Below are positions 53,041 through 63,856 of a stretch of 64,000 bases of DNA, piece by piece. This stretch comes from Picocystis sp. L7. Taxonomy: Eukaryota; Chlorophyta; Picocystophyceae; Picocystales; Picocystaceae. Made by a program: the position numbers and the translations under genes. The stretch lies in contig QXJR01000009.1 of NCBI GenBank assembly GCA_020975725.1, forward strand, positions 744,001 through 808,000, given 5' to 3'. Each line of letters opens with the position of its first letter. Position 1 is the first letter of the stretch. The notes below the pieces were generated by a model, which saw only the letters and a list, made by a program, of their open reading frames with translations, ran no database searches and was not told where the DNA came from.

Positions 53041-53895
53041 ATGTCGATCCTGCGAACGCTCGTGGAGGCTTCCAGGGGTCGTGGCGGTCCGTGTACGTCG
53101 CTGCTGGGCGCGATTACCGGTTCTGGGTGGCCCCACGCCGCGAAGGCGTGCGTCCATCCGCCGATGTCGACGTCGGCCATGGCGTTGCAAGAAGCCATGG
53201 CGGAAGAACCGAAGGTGCCAGAGGTTCTGGGCGAAGCGTCAGCACCCCTTCCGACGCCGTTCGCATCCGTGCCGATGGTGCGGAGGGAAGAGAGCGGAAG
53301 CAGACACGCAGAACGGCTGCGTCGGCGTGGACTCCTACCTGGCGTGGTGTATGGCGGCGGGAAGGAAGGCAACGAAATCAACGTGGCCGTCCATCCGAAA
53401 GCGGTGAAACAGCTCATGGGAAAGGATGGAACGCCAGGCATGCTGGGATCGAAAGTGCTGGCGTTGCACTGGTGTGAGAAAGAAGAAGACCTGCAACCCG
53501 GTGGGATCCAAGAGCCATCCGCTGGAACGGGACAAGAATGGGTGCTCATCAGAGATGTGCACGAAAACCCAATGAACGAGAAGATGGAAAACGTGTCCTT
53601 CTTGCGAGTCAAGAAGGGAACGCCCGTCCGAGCATTCATCCCACTGCGTGTCAATGGAGAAACCCAATCGCCCGGCATCAAACGAGGAGGGTTCCTGGAA
53701 GTCATGCATCCCACGGTAGAGGTCTTCTGCGCACCAGAAGATATCCCGGAATGCTTCGAGCTTCAAGTGGGACACCTGGAAGGAAAAAAGTGCATCCGGT
53801 ACAGTGACCTGAAGACCCCAGAGCGTGTGCGAGTGATGGTGAAGGACGAAACGCAGCCAGTGGTCCGTATCGGTGGAAAAGTGAGAAGGACGTAA
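53041..53895 (+). CDS. Organellar 50S ribosomal protein bL25 (TL5/CTC type)
   Basis: 284 codons from the ATG giving MSILRTLVEASRG. The N-terminal ~75 residues look like a mitochondrial or plastid targeting peptide. The bL25 domain then follows (GSRHAERLRRRGLLPGVVYGGG, like the bacterial start GK..RRLR..G.VPAVVYG), with VAVHPKAVKQLM and the C-terminal beta-barrel of the long CTC/TL5 form (FIPLRVNGETQSPGIKRGG, HPTVEVFCAPEDIPECFEL). bL25 binds 5S rRNA in the large subunit. The frame is open far upstream across the spacer, but nothing there resembles the family. It converges on eIF5B with 268 bp between stops. Confidence 0.85.
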   Translation: MSILRTLVEASRGRGGPCTSLLGAITGSGWPHAAKACVHPPMSTSAMALQEAMAEEPKVPEVLGEASAPLPTPFASVPMVRREESGSRHAERLRRRGLLPGVVYGGGKEGNEINVAVHPKAVKQLMGKDGTPGMLGSKVLALHWCEKEEDLQPGGIQEPSAGTGQEWVLIRDVHENPMNEKMENVSFLRVKKGTPVRAFIPLRVNGETQSPGIKRGGFLEVMHPTVEVFCAPEDIPECFELQVGHLEGKKCIRYSDLKTPERVRVMVKDETQPVVRIGGKVRRT

Positions 53896-54163: not shown

Positions 54164-57100
54164 TTACATGATGTCAAACAGCTTCTTCAGCTTCACGACA
54201 AGGATCCATTCCTCCTTGTTGAGATCGTTCCGGTAGTTTTCTTTCAGCAGATCAATCGATCTTCTGCTGATGAGACTAACCAGCTCATCGTCTTCAAAAA
54301 AGTGCCGACCCACCATGCGTGTGGACTCAGTGGGATTTGTGCTGTTGATTTTGACTGCCACAGAGTCCCCTTTCCTCGCCACGGGAACCGATTTATGGTT
54401 GTTCTCTATGGAAGATATCCGCCCGATGGTCAAAAACCCTCCATCCATTGGGTCTGGGCGATTGGGCACACACAGCGGAGTGCCAACCTTAGCGATGCCC
54501 TCGAGTACTTCGCAACCCAGGATGATTGGGTCTTTCTTATTAAAGACACAATTGGGTAGGATCTTTAGAATGCAGGGGAAGACGGCATCAAACTCTGCAG
54601 CTTTACGCTTCTCTTCCTTCACCTTCGCCATATATGAGACAAACTGGTCAAAGAGATGATAGATGATATCTGCAGTGAAGATCTTCACCCCGAGCTCCTC
54701 TGCCATTGCAACAGCATCTTTTTCGACTTTCACATCAAAAGCAAGGATCACCGCAAACTCCTTCCGTTTCCTTTCAAGCATTACGCTTGCCCTCATCACA
54801 TCTTTCTTGTGAATCGGACCGATGTTTATACCAGATACTGGGATCTGCACTGCGGGGGACTTCAAAAATTCCAGAAGTGCTTCGAGGGAACCGAGGGTGG
54901 ATGCCTGAACGCACACCCCTTCGCCACTCTTGTCCACACTACCAAGGATATGGCTCATATCTGCCATTGCCTCGTCCTTCAACTCTTCCAGGTCATCATC
55001 CGGTCCAACAGCAAAAAGCTGCGTTCCGGCAATTGCTGTTTCCAAGCCATTGGCAGTAATTTTCACCCCCTGCGCTGCCTTAATCTCTTTGTGGTGGATG
55101 TATGAGCCCTTCACACGAAGCTCGCGCATTGGATGCGGTGTTAGCAAAGCCCTGACTTGTGTAACAATGGGACCTTGGAGTCCACAAACAACAATTGTGT
55201 CTCCCTCCCGCAAAGTGCCATTGACTAGAATGACATCAATAGTTGTGCCGAGGCCTTCGATCATCTTGACCTCCAGGACAGTGCATTGGGTGTCTTCCAC
55301 GTACATAAGTCGGTCCCGCAGTTTCTCCTGTGTGAGCTTGCACAGCAGCTGAAGAATGTCCGGAAGTCCCTCTCCAGATATGGCACTGGTCGGAACAATA
55401 TTGACATACTTTCTCACGTCAGGGTTTTTCCAGTATGGAGCCACGTTAAGCCCTTGCTCCTGAAAGGCCAATATGGTTTTGTCAAACCGTTGTTCATACT
55501 CGTTGATGACATAATCCGGCTGGTTGTCAAGCGCTTTCTGAATGGGTGCATTCGGATGGCTTTTCCACTCAAACATCCTGTCGACCTTATTCAAGGCAAT
55601 GATGAAAGGGGTTTTACGCATGCGTAAAAGGTTCAAGGACTCGAGGGTTTGCTGCTCCAAGCCATGCATAATATCCACCACAAGAATGGCTATGTCACAT
55701 AGACCACTCCCCCTTGAACGCAAATTTGTGAAAGATTCATGCCCCGGAGTGTCAATGACAAGCAGCCCTGGCAGTTTGAGATCCATAGCCCCTTCGTTTA
55801 ACTCAAGAGTACGGTCAATGATGGCCTGCTTGGGAATGTAGGTTGCACCGATCTGTTGTGTAATCCCTCCTGCCTCTCCGTCCTGGACATTGGTGCCCCT
55901 GATTTTGTCAAGCAACTTGGTTTTTCCTGTATCAACATGGCCTAGAATGCAGCAGATCGGAGACCTGAGATTGTTTGCATCTCGTTCTGCAAGAGCTTTT
56001 TCCAAGCGCCCCTGGCGCAGGGCCTTGGCCTTCTCTTTTCTTTCTCGCAATGCTCGTTCTTCCTCGTCCTCGTTGCTGTCAGAGTAATCGCTATCACTGT
56101 CATACGAGGAGGCTGCCAGTTCCTCTTCTGCGTCTTCTCCATTGCTCTCTTCCAACCGCAAGCGCTCTCCGTCCTCGCCATCCACTTCCCCCTCCTCCAT
56201 ACTTACAGACTCCTCCCAGTTCTTCTCTTCCCAGTCATCAGGGGCATCAAGAACAGCAGTCCCCTCTTCTGCAACCTCAGCTGACCCGCTTTCTTCCAGG
56301 GACTTTTCAACCGGGATCTCTGCTTTGTGAGACGGCAACTCGACAGTCTTCTCTGCGTCAATCTTAGTCGGCTCTGGAGTGGTTCTTTCTTGGGGGATCT
56401 CTTCCTGGGGGGGCGGTGCCTTTTTCTTCTTCTTGGTGTAGACCACCTTTTCTTTCTTATAAGCTTCTTGTTGCCCTTCTACAAGTTCCTGAACATCGCT
56501 CACACCAGCTGCCTGGAGCATCTGCTCCCTTACCATTGCTAGTCTACGCTGTTCCTCTTTCTGCTTGGCGGTAAGCAGTTTGCCATCTTTTTTCATCTGC
56601 TCTCGCCTTGCTTTCTTTTGCTCCTTCTTCCTCTGCCGCTCCTCTTCTGCTTTTCTTTCCTCTTCTCTTATCCGCTCCTCCTCTTCTGCTTCTTTGCGAA
56701 GGCGCTCTTCTTCCTTTTTCTGAGCTTCTTCCTCCAGCCTCTTTTTCTCTTCCAACGCTTCCTGCATCTTTCTGATAGCTGCATTGACGGGCTTTGTCTT
56801 CTTTGGCGCAGTGCTTTCTTCCTTTGCGGCTTCTTTTTTGGCTTTTTCCTTCTCCTTCTTTTTCAGCTTCTTTTTCTGAGCGGCAGTCAGTTCTTTCTTC
56901 TCTTCCTCTTGATTTTCGAGCGGCGCTGTCTCTTGAGAAGCTTCAGCTTCAGCTTCCGGAGCCACGGGTTTGTTCAGGGACAGTGGAGGATCTGTTGTGG
57001 TGGTAGCTGCCTTCCCTTGCGCAGCCTCTGCTGCTTTTTTTACTGCATCTAGATCCATGGCGGGCTCCTCTTCTTCTTTTTCTTTGGGTCCTTCCAGCAT

Positions 57101-58510
57101 GGCCAGGATGGCGTCAATCTCTTCCTCTTCCTGCTGTGTTCTTTGTGCTTTTCCTTTCTTGTTCTTCTTCTTTTTGGAATTTGGTTTGTGAGCTTCAGCC
57201 TCGGTGCTCTTCTCCGTCGACTTTGCCTCTGCCGATGGAGCTGTGGTCACCCCGTTGGCTGCATCCCCTGTGCTATGCTCTAAAACAGCAAGCAAGTTTT
57301 TCTCATCGATCGTTTTTTTTCTTTTTCTTCTTGCCTTCAAAGACCACTGGCTCCTGTGCAGCATCAGCTGCTTGTTCAGCCAGCATCTTTTCAAGCTCAT
57401 CACCCCCTTTCTTTTTTTTCTTCTTCTTTCCTTCAAATTTCAGCTCATCGTTTCCTTGGGGACACTCTTTCGTCGGAGCCTCGGCTGGAACTGACGATCC
57501 AGGAACGAGAGAACCAGGGAGCACGATCGCACCTTGTGCTTCTTCGTCCGCCCAACCTGCATCCTTTGCAGAGCACAACATCCCAAAGCTATCGACACCC
57601 CTGAGAGAAACCTTCTCGATCTCAAGACCTGTACCTGGAGTCACGCATCCAATGGGTGCAAAGACAGTCCTCATCCCTTGAGAAACGTTCGTGGCATTCG
57701 TCACGACCTGCACCTGTGTGCCTTGCCCTACGTCCAATTGGCACACCCTGCCCATCAAAAATACGCCGGATCGACTTCGTTAGCACGTTCATTCATGGAA
57801 GCATTCGCTCAATCGGCGAGACGCTTTGGAGCACGACTTGCCCGTCGTCCGGTATTCGTTCATTCTCCCGCATCCGACGCGTACCTCAATCGATCTGCTT
57901 TGGGGTGTTTTACGACAGCTGCGATGGTCGCCACCTTCAATTGTGGGATTCCGGATCCGCCGGCATGAGCAGAACCTTCCTGACGTTCCAATTTCTCTTC
58001 CGGACCTTCCTCTACCAGCTCGGCACCTTCGTCCAGCAAAGCGAAGGAGGAACCTCCCGTCGTTCCCTCTCCAACTTCTGCTTCGACTTGGTCGCGTGCA
58101 TCCTCTCCGTCGTCTTCTTCTGCCAGAAGATCGAATCCGGTCGCCGCACTCGTCCCCGATGGTTCTTCCTCTTCCTCTTCTTCTCCTTCCTCTTCGAGGA
58201 GCATGTGAAAGGCGGTGGCGGTTGTTTTTCCGCTCGCGCCTCGGTTTTCCTCCTCTTCTTCATCCTCGGATTTGCCGACTTCGCCAGGTATGTCTCCTAG
58301 CTGTATGTCTTCTTCGCCATCGCTCTCGACGTCCAAGGCTGCACGACCACCTTTCTTCTTCCCTTTCTTCCCTTTCTTCTCCTTCTTCTTCTTCGTCTCC
58401 ACCGCCTCTCCGCCGTCTGCGGGCTCCTCGGAGGCCCCCTTCCCCTCGTCTCCATCCAAGAGGTACTCGTCGTCATCCACCAACCCCCTGTTCCGCGATT
58501 TACGTCCCAT
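54164..58510 (-). CDS. Translation initiation factor eIF5B with an internal tRNA-binding OB domain
   Basis: Exons 58510-57885 and 57747-54164, about 1,402 codons. The start MGRKSRNRG fits eIF5B. Order: acidic/Lys-rich tail; a PheT/EMAPII-type tRNA-binding domain at ~190-295 (VKHPKADRLR | VCQLDVGQG, LRGVDSFGMLCSAKDAG); long charged Lys/Glu coiled coil; GTPase with GHVDTGKT (~810), DTPGHES and NKVD; GIXXXD-like end (NKEEWILVVKLKKLFDI). eIF5B joins the 60S subunit and places initiator tRNA, and is a single-copy essential GTPase in known eukaryotes. The tRNA-binding domain is not part of the eIF5B proteins I know. The reading frame shifts by one base at an A8 run in a polylysine stretch (57313-57320, T8 on plus): seven As would keep it open. 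That could be an assembly error, +1 frameshifting or a real defect. Confidence 0.9.
57748..57884 (-). other. Intron of eIF5B, 137 bp, inside the tRNA-binding domain
   Basis: Donor TTGAG|GTACGC, acceptor GGGCAG|G, phase 2. Splicing joins KADRLR to VCQLDVGQG, exactly the continuous family sequence. Confidence 0.88.
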
Positions 58511-58741: not shown

Positions 58742-59390
58742 CGGGTTAAGGACCTCGAAGGACGAGGTCCACCTGCGCTTCGGCGTTTCTTCGTTGGATC
58801 GATCCACTTCGCGTGGACATGTCCGACTTGTGCCGATTGTGGCAGTGTCGGATGGGCGAAACCGGAACCATCCAAGCACGGGAGATCCATTGAACGAGGG
58901 ATGCACCCGACCTTGTCCGTTGGAACACGAACGGCGGTGGGAAGGAGCACGGACCGTCCTTCGTCCAAAACCAGTGGACATGGAGACAAGAACGAATCCG
59001 ATGGCGTTTCGAGGGAGAGGAGCTACCAACCTTCATTCCCTCGGCGGAGAGAAGGACACCTTCATCGACTGGACCCGGATGCATATCTTGCGCTTGACAA
59101 GTGCGTTTCGGTGGAGTTTCGAGGGTCAAGGGAGCACAGACGGATCCAGCGTTGGTGGGATCGAATGGGCGAGAGGGAATTCGACGCGGAATGGTCCCCG
59201 TCGGAACGGAACGAGCTTGGGAACGGAGGATTGGAGGGAGAACTAGACGGCATGATACGTTGGGGATGACAAGGACACGGAATGAGAGAGAAAAGGACCG
59301 AGAGGGGGATGGGAGGGAGAGAGATCGAGGGGGAGACAAGCGGGAGGGAGAGGGACCGCGATTGAGAGAGGAGTGGAGAGGACTGCAGGG

Positions 59391-59463
59391 AGAGGGAGAG
59401 GGAGAGAGAGGGAGAGGGAGGGAGAGGGAGGGAGAGGGAGGGAGAGGGAGGGAGAGGGAGAGG
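59391..59463. repeat. GAGAGGGAGG purine repeat
   Basis: About 70 bp of GGGAGAGGGAGGGAGAGGGA-like units, just upstream of the RMI1 start. Confidence 0.85.
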
Positions 59464-59494
59464 GTGAGTTGGTTCGCTTGTGTGTTTCTGTCGC

Positions 59495-61087
59495 ATGGAG
59501 ATCGGCGAGGACGATGGCCAAGGCATGGCATCTCGCCTGGCGCAATTGCACATCCACGTGGATCCAAGGTGGGTGGCAGAAGCCTCCAGCTTCCATCCAG
59601 GTGACCTGGAACGTGTAGTGGACGCGTACCTGAACACAGACCTGCGTGTTTGTGGACGTGGGACCCTGCCTGGTCCCGTCGATGCCATGGAAGTGCTTCG
59701 TGGAAAGCACGTCTTGCAAGTGGACGAAGCCGTGGACGTGTCCTTGCCCGCGAAAGAAAGGTTCCAAGCCAAGCCAAAACACGCCAATCGATGCTTGAAA
59801 CTCGCACTCACCGATGGGAAGACCGACCTGGTGGGATTCGAACGAACACTCCTCGCTTGGGATGGAACCGCCGAAGATCTCGTCGGCAGCAAAATCCTTG
59901 TGGAAGACGTGGAAGTCAGAAGAGGTGTGCTCGTGCTCGTGAACGAGCGCACGATCGTGCTTGGAGGCAACAGTCCGACCATGCGTGAGGCGCGAGACCG
60001 GGCATTGGGCAGGTGGAATGCCAGAAGAACCAGAGAAGAGATGAGACAGGGATGCTCTGTCCAAGGCAGGGTCCAAGAAGCCAGGAGAGCCGCTTGGGAA
60101 GGGACCGGACAAGAAGCAGCTCCTGGATCTGAGACCAGAGGTGATGCACCGAACGGAAGAGCCGATGAAAATGTCTGCCAACGACAAGCATGGGAGCACC
60201 CGGAAACACGGAACGTGGGAGATGGGGCTCCTGGGTCGACGGTTGACGGATGGAATGCGGGCCTGGGAAACAATCGCACCGCCCCCTTGGCTCCGTGTGA
60301 AATGCGTCCAACTGGGAATGAAGAGCAACAAGAAGGACCTACCGACGAGGAACTCGAGGCCATGAGAGCAACAGAGGCACCCGTACAGATGCCACCCATT
60401 CACGCACATGTGGAGAATTCCGGGCCACCCCCGGGCACAAACACCATGGTCCCAAATCCCACCACGCAACTCACCTTGAACGCAGTATCTCCAGTGGGTG
60501 CTGCGGGCGCACCAATGGTAGAGGAAGCAGTAGAGCCAACAAGTTCGCCATCGTTGGTCATGCCCTCACCTGTGCTGTCCGTAGAGCAGCCATCCGCCCA
60601 GCACCTGCTAATTTCTCCTTCGCAAACGCTTCCAGGCAAATCAGATGTGGTTCCACTCCATCTACATGTACGGTGTTTGAAGGAGGTATTGGAGCACAAT
60701 CAGTGCTGTGAAAGAACAGATGCCCTGGAAAAGGTCTACGTGCAGGGGGTGTTCACACACTTGCAAATGGATGTATCAGAGACCCAGTATTCTGCTGTTG
60801 GCATTCTTGAAGATGGTACAGCAAGCGTCGAGGTCCGTTTTCCTCATACCCTTCTAGAAGAGAGGTTGTTCGAGGTTTCGCCAGCCCAGTTTGCTCTGGT
60901 AAAGGAGGAGGAGGAGATAAGGACGAAAATTGCTGACAACCTTGCTCGGTTTTCGGATTTTGATGGAATCGCTCATATCTGGATTCAACCGACCAACCTG
61001 CGGGCTTTCGTCATTGCACTGCATGAAATGGAGGGGGAGTCTTGCAAGGGCCTGGCACGGTCCATCCTCGGCGGGCTCGCTCTGTAG
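59495..61087 (+). CDS. RMI1: RecQ-mediated genome instability protein 1
   Basis: 530 codons from the ATG giving MEIGEDDGQG; the ATG at 59525 (MASRLAQLH) is an alternative. The N-terminal helical domain (WVAEASSFHPGDLERVVDAYL) and OB-fold 1 (LRGKHVLQVDEAVDVSLPAK, CLKLALTDGKTDLVGFER, GSKILVEDVEVRRGVLVL) match RMI1. A long disordered, P/E/T-rich linker follows, then a C-terminal OB-like domain (VYVQGVFTHLQ, ILEDGTASVEVRF, ALHEMEGE) consistent with OB2. RMI1 partners with topoisomerase III-alpha and a RecQ/BLM helicase to dissolve double Holliday junctions in the nucleus. The length is within the plant/animal range (~600). It converges on the bZIP gene with ~160 bp between stops. Confidence 0.85.
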   Translation: MEIGEDDGQGMASRLAQLHIHVDPRWVAEASSFHPGDLERVVDAYLNTDLRVCGRGTLPGPVDAMEVLRGKHVLQVDEAVDVSLPAKERFQAKPKHANRCLKLALTDGKTDLVGFERTLLAWDGTAEDLVGSKILVEDVEVRRGVLVLVNERTIVLGGNSPTMREARDRALGRWNARRTREEMRQGCSVQGRVQEARRAAWEGTGQEAAPGSETRGDAPNGRADENVCQRQAWEHPETRNVGDGAPGSTVDGWNAGLGNNRTAPLAPCEMRPTGNEEQQEGPTDEELEAMRATEAPVQMPPIHAHVENSGPPPGTNTMVPNPTTQLTLNAVSPVGAAGAPMVEEAVEPTSSPSLVMPSPVLSVEQPSAQHLLISPSQTLPGKSDVVPLHLHVRCLKEVLEHNQCCERTDALEKVYVQGVFTHLQMDVSETQYSAVGILEDGTASVEVRFPHTLLEERLFEVSPAQFALVKEEEEIRTKIADNLARFSDFDGIAHIWIQPTNLRAFVIALHEMEGESCKGLARSILGGLAL

Positions 61088-61245: not shown

Positions 61246-61932
61246 TCACAAGGAATCGATGAACTCATACTCGTTCTGTTTTGCCTTCCTCAGGTCTATT
61301 TCGCCCTTCAGCTGCACAAAGACGGTGCGCAGGGAATCGATCTGCTCCCTCAGCCTTGCTTGTTCTTCCTTCATGTGAAGGATCTGCGCTTTCATGCGCT
61401 CTTCCTCCTCCTTTTTCTTCGCTTTCGATCTCGCAGCAGCTTCGCGGTTGAGGAGGATCCTTTGATATCGTTTAGGGTCTTCTTGCCTGAGCCTTTCGAG
61501 CTCGGTGTCACTCGCTGGCTTCTTGGTCTTTCGAACGTGCGAGTCTCGTTGTTCCAGGACAGAGCGAGTGAGTTGCTCCAACACCTCCTCTGCTCCGCCT
61601 TCTTCTCCCTTGATTGCGAGAGACTTCTGCTTTTTGTTTTTGGACACCATCCCAAGGACGCGATCCAATCCATCTTTGGATTTGAGCTCTTGGGCGAGTG
61701 TGCCTTGGAACTTGCCCGGCGAGCTGATGACGTGTTCGATCATCATCTTGAGGAACTTGGGACTGGCTCTGCACGTTGGCTTGTTGAAGCTGGATGCCCT
61801 AGGCGTGGCCAGCAGATCCGTGGTCTTGCTGGAGTTCTTTTCCTCTTCGGAACTTTCGCCATGATGCCCCGCTTCTTTCCAGGCCCTCTTCTTGGCCTGG
61901 ATCGGTTCCGGCGACCCTTCTTGCAACGACAT
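61246..61932 (-). CDS. bZIP transcription factor
   Basis: 228 codons if it starts at MSLQEGSPEP; the frame remains open to 62403 (385 codons), so a longer N-terminus or an upstream exon is possible. The upstream part contains two copies of the spacer motif, which argues that it is non-coding. The C-terminal 76 residues are a bZIP domain. The basic region DPKRYQRILLNREAAARSKA has N-X7-(R/K) spacing (Asn, then Ser-Lys) like plant group I (VIP1/RSG), followed by a heptad leucine/isoleucine zipper (ILHMKEEQARLREQIDSL). Upstream is an S/K-rich, presumably disordered region. It should be nuclear and DNA-binding; its targets are unknown. Confidence 0.85.
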   Translation of the reverse strand: MSLQEGSPEPIQAKKRAWKEAGHHGESSEEEKNSSKTTDLLATPRASSFNKPTCRASPKFLKMMIEHVISSPGKFQGTLAQELKSKDGLDRVLGMVSKNKKQKSLAIKGEEGGAEEVLEQLTRSVLEQRDSHVRKTKKPASDTELERLRQEDPKRYQRILLNREAAARSKAKKKEEEERMKAQILHMKEEQARLREQIDSLRTVFVQLKGEIDLRKAKQNEYEFIDSL

Positions 61933-62111
61933 GTATGGCTCTGGAGCCTCTCCAGCCGCTCCGGTGCACCTCGCAAGCGCTCTTCGCGCCGCAATCTGTT
62001 GCACTTCGGATCTGGACGAACACGTGGATCGATCCCTTCGGTTAACTCGATCGTAAACACGGCGACCCTGGGCGTCGACGGTCGGCGTCCAGGGTCGTCG
62101 ATGCGTTCCCG

Positions 62112-62123
62112 AATGCCCCCCTT
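62112..62123 (-). promoter_or_regulatory. AAGGGGGGCATT motif, copy 4 (minus strand)
   Basis: Exact 12-mer on the minus strand, 180 bp upstream of the chosen bZIP start. Confidence 0.5.
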
Positions 62124-62173
62124 CTTCTGCCCCCAAACCTCCGGTCCGAGGGGGTGGGGTCCACGAACCCTCC

Positions 62174-62185
62174 AATGCCCCCCTT
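62174..62185 (-). promoter_or_regulatory. AAGGGGGGCATT motif, copy 5 (minus strand)
   Basis: Exact 12-mer, 62 bp from copy 4 and in the same orientation. Confidence 0.5.
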
Positions 62186-63856
62186 TTGGGAGGATCCTCC
62201 ACCCGGGCTCGTGGGGGAGGGGAGCCACACAGGGGAGGTGGCAATCCGACCGTTGGTGGGGGGTGGGGCTTGGCTGGCAGGCGACGAATTCGAACCCCAG
62301 AGGTCCCTTCCGAAGACGTCGGATTCTCGGAAGGGGTTTCTTGCATGACGCGACGTCCAAGGTGACGTCGACGGAAGGAGAGGATCGCGATGGGATGGGA
62401 CAAGGGCAGGCCTCGGACGAGATGGCGGGTCTCACCGTCGTCCGTGGAAGGCGATGGGATTGTCGGACGCGCTGTCCCATTCCCCGAACCAGGTTACGGC
62501 ACCCGATTCGTCTTCTCGATGACGGTCTCGGTGGAGGTCGTTTTGCATGACCCGTCCCTTCGACGAGTGGCCTCGACGGTCCAGGTTTTCCCTATTCCAG
62601 CTCACGGACGAGCCGGTCGAACCCCATCGATTCGTGGACGAGCAAGAATCGGACGGTCCTGTTCGTCCTTGGCAACCCGTTCCCAGGAACGATGCCTCGG
62701 ATCCGTTCGTCACTCGATTCCGACGTCTCCGAGACGCCGTCGACGCGAGTCGTTCGCCTGTTCCCATTCGTCTGGAGCGGCAGGAACGTTCCCTTTCGAA
62801 GCAAGGGAAGGGTAGTTTCTTCCACCGTCGGTTGGACCCCTTCCGAACCTTCCCTCTTTGGTTTCGGGAACACAGCTGGCAGCCTGTTCGGGGTGGGACG
62901 GATCTCACGTCATCCTCCCCCTCCTCCAAGGGGGGGCAGGAGGGGAGAGAGACCCAGCCCCTTCCTGTGGGATCGGGATGCACCCAGGGAAAGGGACGTC
63001 GATCCTGGGTTTCACACCTCACGTGCGCTTTTTCGAGCGGGCGGGAGAGCGAGAACGCGTCCCGGGTGGAAAAATCTGGATCGGACGGTGGAGGTGGCGG
63101 TCCTTCCGCCCTCGAGTCGGGGAGATGGGGCCATCCGACGGTCGAGAAGCCACGGCTGCCACCCAGCTGGCCCGGGGGCGACGAAATTCGGGCGAATGTT
63201 CTTCGGTCTCGGAGAGATTCGACGGCATCTCGTGGGACGTATCCCCGCATCTGGACGTGTCGACGAGGCCGTCCTCGCAGAGGATCGCCCGGGGGCGCAA
63301 CCCTTGGGAAAGACCCCCTTCTCCCGCAGAGGACATCAGCAGTAAAACAGAACCATTCCTCTGCACCGATCGTAGTTCCTGCGTCGCGGGGAGGGTTCCC
63401 CCTGCCGATCCCTGCTTCTGCACCGTCCTTTTCCTCCCCCCCACCGCAAATATCTCCGTCCTCTGCGATCCAAGCTCCCCTCCGCCCTCCCTCGCCCTCC
63501 CCTCGCCCCTCTCACATCCTCCCTCCCCTCCCCTCCCTCCCCCACTCATCCGCGAACCTTTCAGCCGCGCCTCTCTTCCCTTCCCCCGACCGGGCCCGTC
63601 GCGGACAAAATATCTCCGCGTGGGTCCAGCCAGGCTGCGTGCTTCCAGTCGTCCAGTATCGCTTCGACGCCATCCCATCCGCCACACGCAGCACGCCAAG
63701 CAAGGACGTGCGTCGCAGATCCGCAGCCGCAGGACGCAGCCGAAGAGGCGAGGCGTGCCACCGTCGAAAAACGAGAGAAAAAAGAAGAAGGGAGACGAAG
63801 GGAAAGGGTGGCGGAGCGGATCCAGAACGGGAGAACCCACGTCTCCAAAGGACGAG

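Follow-up and report, generated by a model that had tools for sequence, protein, structure and literature searches.

Does the eIF5B gene of the green alga Picocystis sp. L7 encode a tRNA-binding OB domain in front of its GTPase, as a first reading of the DNA had suggested, and if so, of which type is this domain, where did it come from and what could it do there? eIF5B is a universal factor, whose N-terminal tail is usually treated as variable and dispensable. The locus was studied in a window of 64,000 nucleotides (contig QXJR01000009.1, positions 744,001 to 808,000); genome-wide searches covered the assembly of the strain (20.5 Mb, 30 contigs). The fusion is a real and recurrent domain architecture of eIF5B in green algae.

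Gene structure and identity of the inserted domain

Table 1. Features of the eIF5B gene of Picocystis sp. L7 (positions in the window)
Feature	Position	Strand	Remarks
eIF5B exon 1	57885..58510	-	ATG 58510; eIF5B-like N-terminus, charged tail, first 19 OB residues
tRNA_bind OB domain, part 1 (aa 191-209)	57885..57940	-	PF01588
Intron within OB domain	57748..57884	-	137 bp, GT-AG
eIF5B exon 2	54164..57747	-	Remaining OB domain, long charged linker, eIF5B core; TAA 54166-54164
tRNA_bind OB domain, part 2 (to aa 293)	57495..57747	-	PF01588; PheT structures, best 5.2e-17
LRGVDSFGM motif (aa 257-265)	57579..57605	-	Predicted 3'-CA pocket L257, R258, S262, M265
Trp274, fusion-specific tryptophan	57552..57554	-	Alignment columns
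A8 homopolymer with one-base frame break	57313..57320	-	Probable assembly indel
GTPase domain (PF00009)	55331..55960	-	Pfam
Domain II (PF03144)	55025..55249	-	Pfam
IF-2 domain III (PF11987)	54641..54982	-	Pfam
Domain IV (PF14578)	54281..54577	-	Pfam; in eIF5B contacts methionylated CCA end of initiator tRNA (PMC4236685, available part)

The gene consists of two exons (Table 1). The N-terminus encoded by the first, MGRKSRNRG..DDDEY, resembles that of eIF5B proteins, such as MGKKKQRKGAPDLDDDDF of Trebouxia P0008. When left in, the intron brings in-frame stops into the reading frame of the Picocystis sp. L7 window; after its removal the junction reads KADRLR/VCQLDVGQG (the slash marks the splice site). 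Removal restores the sequence of the family, since the score of the Pfam profile tRNA_bind (PF01588) climbs from 41.1 bits with exon 2 alone to 62.4 bits (E 4e-17, cut-off 27), the match extending over aa 191-293 and profile positions 1-95 of 96. The gene prediction of a metagenomic relative, P0001, begins MGR/VCQLDVG, i.e., it reads the 3' end of the intron; that end thus exists in P0001 too.

The preliminary description had claimed an eIF5B with a built-in tRNA-binding OB domain, complete but split by an intron whose removal restores the family sequence, and had proposed a PF01588 search as a check. Both claims are borne out by the full-length profile match above the cut-off, together with the full core and independent homologues, and the interval of 57400-58100, which had been given for the domain, covers both of its parts (57940-57885 and 57747-57495) with flanking linker. 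Two statements stood only in part. The domain does precede the GTPase, but it lies inside the charged tail and not after it, since about 500 tail residues still follow before the P-loop (about aa 810); and of the "PheT/EMAPII" type the first half was retained as PheT/YtpR (2.2e-32 in a PDB profile search), but not EMAPII (about 5e-5).

As printed, exon 2 loses its frame at the A8 run, a break that the preliminary description does not mention, and terminates at 57303 (KKKKKKNDR, then a stop). Taken literally, this would make the OB part a separate 355-residue protein in this Picocystis strain, i.e., two genes or one broken gene, a reading which is almost certainly wrong: P0001, 99% identical over the matched region, is continuous across the run, reading KKKKKKTIDEKN, and so are P0002 and P0003. 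Thus the break probably reflects an indel in the homopolymer rather than the end of a gene, the base count of the window at the run being probably off by one. The same architecture in distant algae and in P0010 speaks against separate genes as well. This last fusion protein bears the label MMETSP1473, which we take to denote a transcriptome project; this would argue against two genes.

The core is that of an eIF5B. The four Pfam domains GTP_EFTU, GTP_EFTU_D2, IF-2 and GTP_EFTU_D4 were all found above cut-off and in order; the whole-protein model PRK04004 was passed with 599.4 bits (cut-off 468), and TIGR00491 gave 521.4 bits, under its own cut-off of 554.75. The fusion gene is the cytosolic eIF5B of Picocystis sp. 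L7. Just two other PF11987 matches occur in the assembly, L005 (contig C1) and L006 (contig C4); both score above the cut-off of 424.4 for bacterial-type IF2 (TIGR00487; 569.6 and 681.3 bits, respectively) and are presumably organellar. The PF11987 search thus revealed no eIF5B besides the fusion, and the idea that the genome might also encode an ordinary one was rejected.

Which family the OB domain belongs to was judged from several searches. PheT structures were best in a PDB sequence search (5.2e-17); with profile A1 the PDB search gave 2.2e-32 for PheT, 6.8e-29 for 3bu2 (presumably a YtpR-like structure), about 5e-5 for EMAPII and 0.013 for Trbp111. An EMAPII-type origin was rejected, since PheT/YtpR structures score far better. 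Among NCBIfam models, YtpR (NF045760) reached 91.6 bits, below its cut-off of 100, and pheT_bact (TIGR00472) 87.6 bits, far below its cut-off of 402.65; the PheT domains B3_4 and FDX-ACB were not found in the Picocystis fusion protein by Pfam profile search. By these similarities the domain is assigned to the PheT/YtpR type.

The surroundings of the gene may be described briefly. Head to head with eIF5B lies an RMI1-like gene (59468-61087, plus strand; RMI1_N_C 54 bits, RMI1_C 29.5 bits), with a low-complexity repeat of the GGGAGA type between the two (59388-59459). An open frame resembling a bZIP transcription factor was seen at 61246-62493 on the minus strand (bZIP_2 30.2 bits), and a gene for a bacterial-type ribosomal protein L25/TL5 (53200-53895, plus strand; PF14693 62.5 bits, PF01386 44.9 bits) is convergent with eIF5B.

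Distribution and origin of the fusion

A homologue search with the domain yielded, among the best 120 of 382 matches, 24 eIF5B and 96 PheT proteins; 22 of the 24 carry a precomputed PF01588 annotation, the exceptions being P0002 and P0003, whose predicted genes start inside the domain. A search with eIF5B (best 120 of 5821 matches) added 99 new proteins, seven of them with the OB domain. Thus 31 of the 123 eIF5Bs among the matches listed have the domain (24 + 7), many of them from green algae; to look for the same architecture in related algae had been a preliminary proposal. Since several of the 32 fusions (Picocystis included) are near-copies (P0001-P0003; P0016-P0019), these counts are not independent. 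Named carriers include Parachlorella kessleri, Myrmecia bisecta, three Trebouxia, Symbiochloris, Volvox africanus, Auxenochlorella and Botryococcus braunii (named from the JGI code Botrbrau1); the eIF5B search added, among others, Coccomyxa, Elliptochloris (P0147, with only the first part of the domain, profile positions 3-69) and the zygnematophyte, i.e., streptophyte alga, Closterium. The possibility of a unique oddity of one genome was rejected, as 31 of the 123 listed eIF5Bs share the architecture, and so was that of an annotation chimaera, as independent genomes, metagenomes and the transcriptome-labelled entry agree.

PF01588 was not found in the remaining 92 of the 123 listed eIF5Bs with filters off (hmmsearch --max), 14 of which are undecidable for want of the N-terminus (P0122 and 13 proteins of fewer than 950 residues). 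Many of the other 78, which are intact, are nameless; the named ones are all from land plants except P0121, which is labelled as the chytrid fungus Siphonaria sp. JEL0065 and flagged as a contaminant. No named land plant among the matches listed carries the domain. The domain-less P0152 has a locus prefix which we take to be that of the zygnematophyte Spirogloea muscicola; its gene model may miss the true N-terminus, since its start, MARAERED, is atypical. Mamiellophyte algae, Klebsormidium and Chara were not recognised among the matches listed. With the divergent P0035 domain as query, P0035 itself was the sole match among 188 candidates.

A tree of the eIF5B core was calculated by a quick method, with SH-aLRT support only, from 59 rows. 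The domain is present in 31 of them (Picocystis and 30 proteins); 17, out of the 78 intact eIF5Bs, are without it, and 11 are undecidable. P0021 and P0190, which have no core anchor, were left out. The clade that includes the named chlorophytes (support 94) contained 29 rows with the domain, nine undecidable ones (N-terminus missing) and no intact one without it. Closterium and P0035 carry the domain; it is missing from their sister, P0152, and from the land plants. The Picocystis row is placed, without a resolved branching order, at the base of the chlorophytes. By label count alone, two gains are favoured over one gain with losses, because the core tree needs only two changes.

The tree of the domain itself was built from 118 columns, with 22 eIF5B domains, 36 bacterial rows picked by similarity (20 of 80 loci and 16 of 96 PheT proteins, without cyanobacterial sequences) and two rows from the own genome; its bootstrap had not settled. 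All 22 eIF5B domains formed one clade (99/96), adjoining bacterial PheT; within it the two streptophyte domains group together (100/97), as do those of the chlorophytes (99/91). The place of the clade is among mostly proteobacterial PheTs, at weak support (94/94, then 83/29); that none of the 80 bacterial loci has a cyanobacterial title says little, these being the best 80 of 585 candidates. A further mark of the fusions is a tryptophan after the motif SAxDxG (Trp274 in Picocystis), present in 29 of the 31 other eIF5B fusions (exceptions are P0053, with Ala, and P0147, with a gap), compared with none of the 96 PheTs among the matches listed; it is likewise absent from the 80 bacterial loci, i.e., the best 80 of 585 (77 PheT and 3 YtpR-like by length). 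The single domain clade and the shared tryptophan which is absent from PheT suggest one old fusion with later losses. Most likely, as judged from these sequence comparisons, the fusion arose once, before or near the split of chlorophytes and streptophytes; the lineage of the land plants and some streptophyte algae would have lost it afterwards.

The genome of Picocystis contains three further PF01588 matches. The frame of L002 reads as MetRS, and L001 and L003 look EMAPII-like (the homology search was made with the L002 domain only). In L003, on contig C24, the Arg of the pocket is replaced by Ala (LAGRVSQAM). A bacterial-type PheT was not found in the assembly by profile searches for B3_4 and FDX-ACB. 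Each gave one match, on other contigs: the gene with B3_4 reaches 496 bits with TIGR00471 (cut-off 283), the model of the archaeal/eukaryotic beta subunit, and the one with FDX-ACB reaches 428 bits with TIGR00469 (cut-off 258), that of the mitochondrial-type single-chain enzyme. As no bacterial-type PheT was detected, the OB domain may be what is left of a bacterial PheRS that has otherwise disappeared. A wider scenario, which we consider unlikely, would have the green-plant ancestor fuse the OB domain of a lost bacterial (organellar) PheRS into eIF5B and so acquire a second, cis-acting hold on the 3' end of initiator tRNA, i.e., a partly eIF2-independent capture of start tRNA that would have been kept by green algae and dropped by land plants.

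The 3'-CA pocket and a possible role

In Trbp111, according to the available part of PMC11286949, C75 of the tRNA lies against F78, and A76 between M85 and R75/I77, hydrogen-bonded by S82; no residue affects binding more than R75. The affinity for tRNA is about 3 micromolar, and the 3'-terminal CA is required: a UUUU extension abolishes binding and a 3' phosphate much reduces it, while some 3' adducts are tolerated, and aminoacyl-tRNA may be accepted (same source). For Arc1p, the accessible portion of PMC12021450 names the matching K, R and S as contributing most to binding; MCP1 needs each of them for deacylation, which is abolished by changing K326 to Ala, and domains of this class are able to deacylate tRNAs with small amino acids.

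When the residues were mapped by position onto these proteins (PMC11286949 and PMC12021450, each in part), the pattern R/K-G-x-x-S-x-G-M was held by 31 of the 32 fusions. The sole miss was P0147, a gene model without that stretch, and the column count agrees (30 of 31 and one gap); this number of misses is the real test of the pocket, since the search pattern itself demanded R/K/Q, S and M. The I77 position is L, V, I or M in all 31 pattern-bearing fusions, and equivalents of R331 and S335 are kept in 31 of 32. In 28 of 31 fusions, A, T or V stands at the position of R75; Ala is found there in 74 of the 96 PheTs among the matches listed and in human EMAPII as well. At the position of K326 in Arc1p/MCP1, Lys occurs in one of 31 fusions versus 73 of the 96 PheTs, and the triad K326-R331-S335 is thus incomplete. 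From this comparison, capture of the 3' CA by the OB domain appears plausible, and deacylation does not.

The preliminary suggestion that the domain could help to hold initiator tRNA or to tether aminoacyl-tRNA to the initiation complex is plausible: in structures of such OB domains the target is the 3' CA of tRNA (PMC11286949), and domain IV of eIF5B acts there as well (PMC4236685). We propose tentatively, at somewhat less than an even chance, that a weak grip on tRNA 3' ends by a domain on a long flexible tether helps to hand Met-tRNAi to domain IV of eIF5B. The OB domain, carried on the charged, presumably disordered N-terminal tail, would weakly capture the exposed 3' CA of tRNAs, like Trbp111 with its micromolar affinity; through the tether, tRNA 3' ends would become locally more concentrated; and Met-tRNAi could then be passed to domain IV, the holder of the methionylated CCA end during subunit joining. 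The effect should be greatest when delivery by eIF2 is limiting. Contact of domain IV with the methionylated CCA end is described in PMC4236685 (in the part available), and a 2012 review (PMC3434475, available part) stated that binding of eIF5B to Met-tRNAi was unreported in eukaryotes and that an eIF2-independent case suggests it. Several points speak against such a grip. The R75 position is mostly A/T/V and the K326 position has lost its lysine. A basic surface is not evident, since the mean net charge of the eIF5B OB domains is slightly acidic, -4.2 (n = 22; Picocystis -1), as against -2.9 in a set of 36 bacterial domains which includes 3 YtpR-like ones. Identity between close relatives is 77-82% in aa 222-300, the compared part of the domain, and thus no better than in the K-rich linkers next to it (74-81%); the acidic linker is less conserved (59-61%). 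Moreover, the fusion counts include near-copies, and the N-terminal part of eIF5B/IF2 was called dispensable for initiation in the portion of PMC4231746 available.

The same acidity, together with the loss of lysines beside the pocket (Lys at S-9 in 73 of 96 PheTs versus 1 of 31 eIF5Bs, at S-6 in 72 of 96 versus 4 of 31), could mean that the domain was re-used for docking to a partner, e.g., the ribosome, MetRS or another factor, with the tryptophan found in 29 of 31 fusions and in none of 96 PheTs marking the surface. This deserves more weight than the remaining alternatives but is doubtful, since 31 of 32 fusions have preserved the R/K, S and M of the pocket. That retained pocket would also suit a sensor of uncharged tRNA, which would prefer the free 3' CA of deacylated tRNAs and tune eIF5B to the amino acid supply; the need of Trbp111 for a 3'-terminal CA and the fact that no eIF5B other than the fusion was found in the Picocystis assembly agree with it. 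We regard it as rather improbable, since Trbp111 tolerates some 3' adducts and may take aminoacyl-tRNA (PMC11286949, in part), and the fusion protein has no further accompanying Pfam domain. An editing deacylase like Arc1p and MCP1, for which the R331 and S335 equivalents and the ability of the OB class would speak, is very improbable and was rejected: the lysine whose Ala mutant is inactive in MCP1 (PMC12021450, in part) is lost, and the domain is predicted not to deacylate tRNA.

A folded domain of a tRNA-end-binding class has been kept across a group of green algae and is missing from the sampled land plants, so initiation may differ mechanistically between algae and plants. The initiator-tRNA step is normally dominated by eIF2; the OB domain, as a cleanly removable module, would make it possible to study how eIF5B acquires or holds initiator tRNA. 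No description of an eIF5B-OB fusion was found in the open-licence full-text literature, going by titles and abstracts; in sequence databases both Pfam domains are already annotated on fusion proteins, so that the architecture can be seen there, but apparently it has not been remarked on in the literature. The fusion seems to be an ancient variation on translation initiation in green algae, one apparently not described before.

Comparison with known systems

Canonical eIF5B, as in land plants and fungi, shares with the fusion the four-domain IF2-type core and the variable charged N-terminal tail, but is without the OB domain (92 listed proteins with --max, 14 of them without N-terminus). Closest in sequence to the inserted domain is the OB domain of bacterial PheT, presumably its B2 domain, with 5.2e-17 in the PDB search and at most 54% identity over part of the query among the matches listed; the RGVxSxGM motif is common to both. 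The fusion domain differs from that of PheT by its own tryptophan, by the lysines at S-9 and S-6, which are mostly gone, by VVTNA in most fusions where PheT has IVCGA, and by its location outside a synthetase. YtpR has a nearly equal profile score (91.6 versus 87.6 bits for pheT_bact), but it is a stand-alone protein, and the fusion stays under the YtpR cut-off of 100. Trbp111, the C-domain of Arc1p, EMAPII/AIMP1 and MCP1 give much weaker profile scores than PheT, and the lysine of Arc1p and MCP1 is absent from the fusion domain; yet they belong to the same OB class and have the Ser, Met and R/K of the pocket in common with it.
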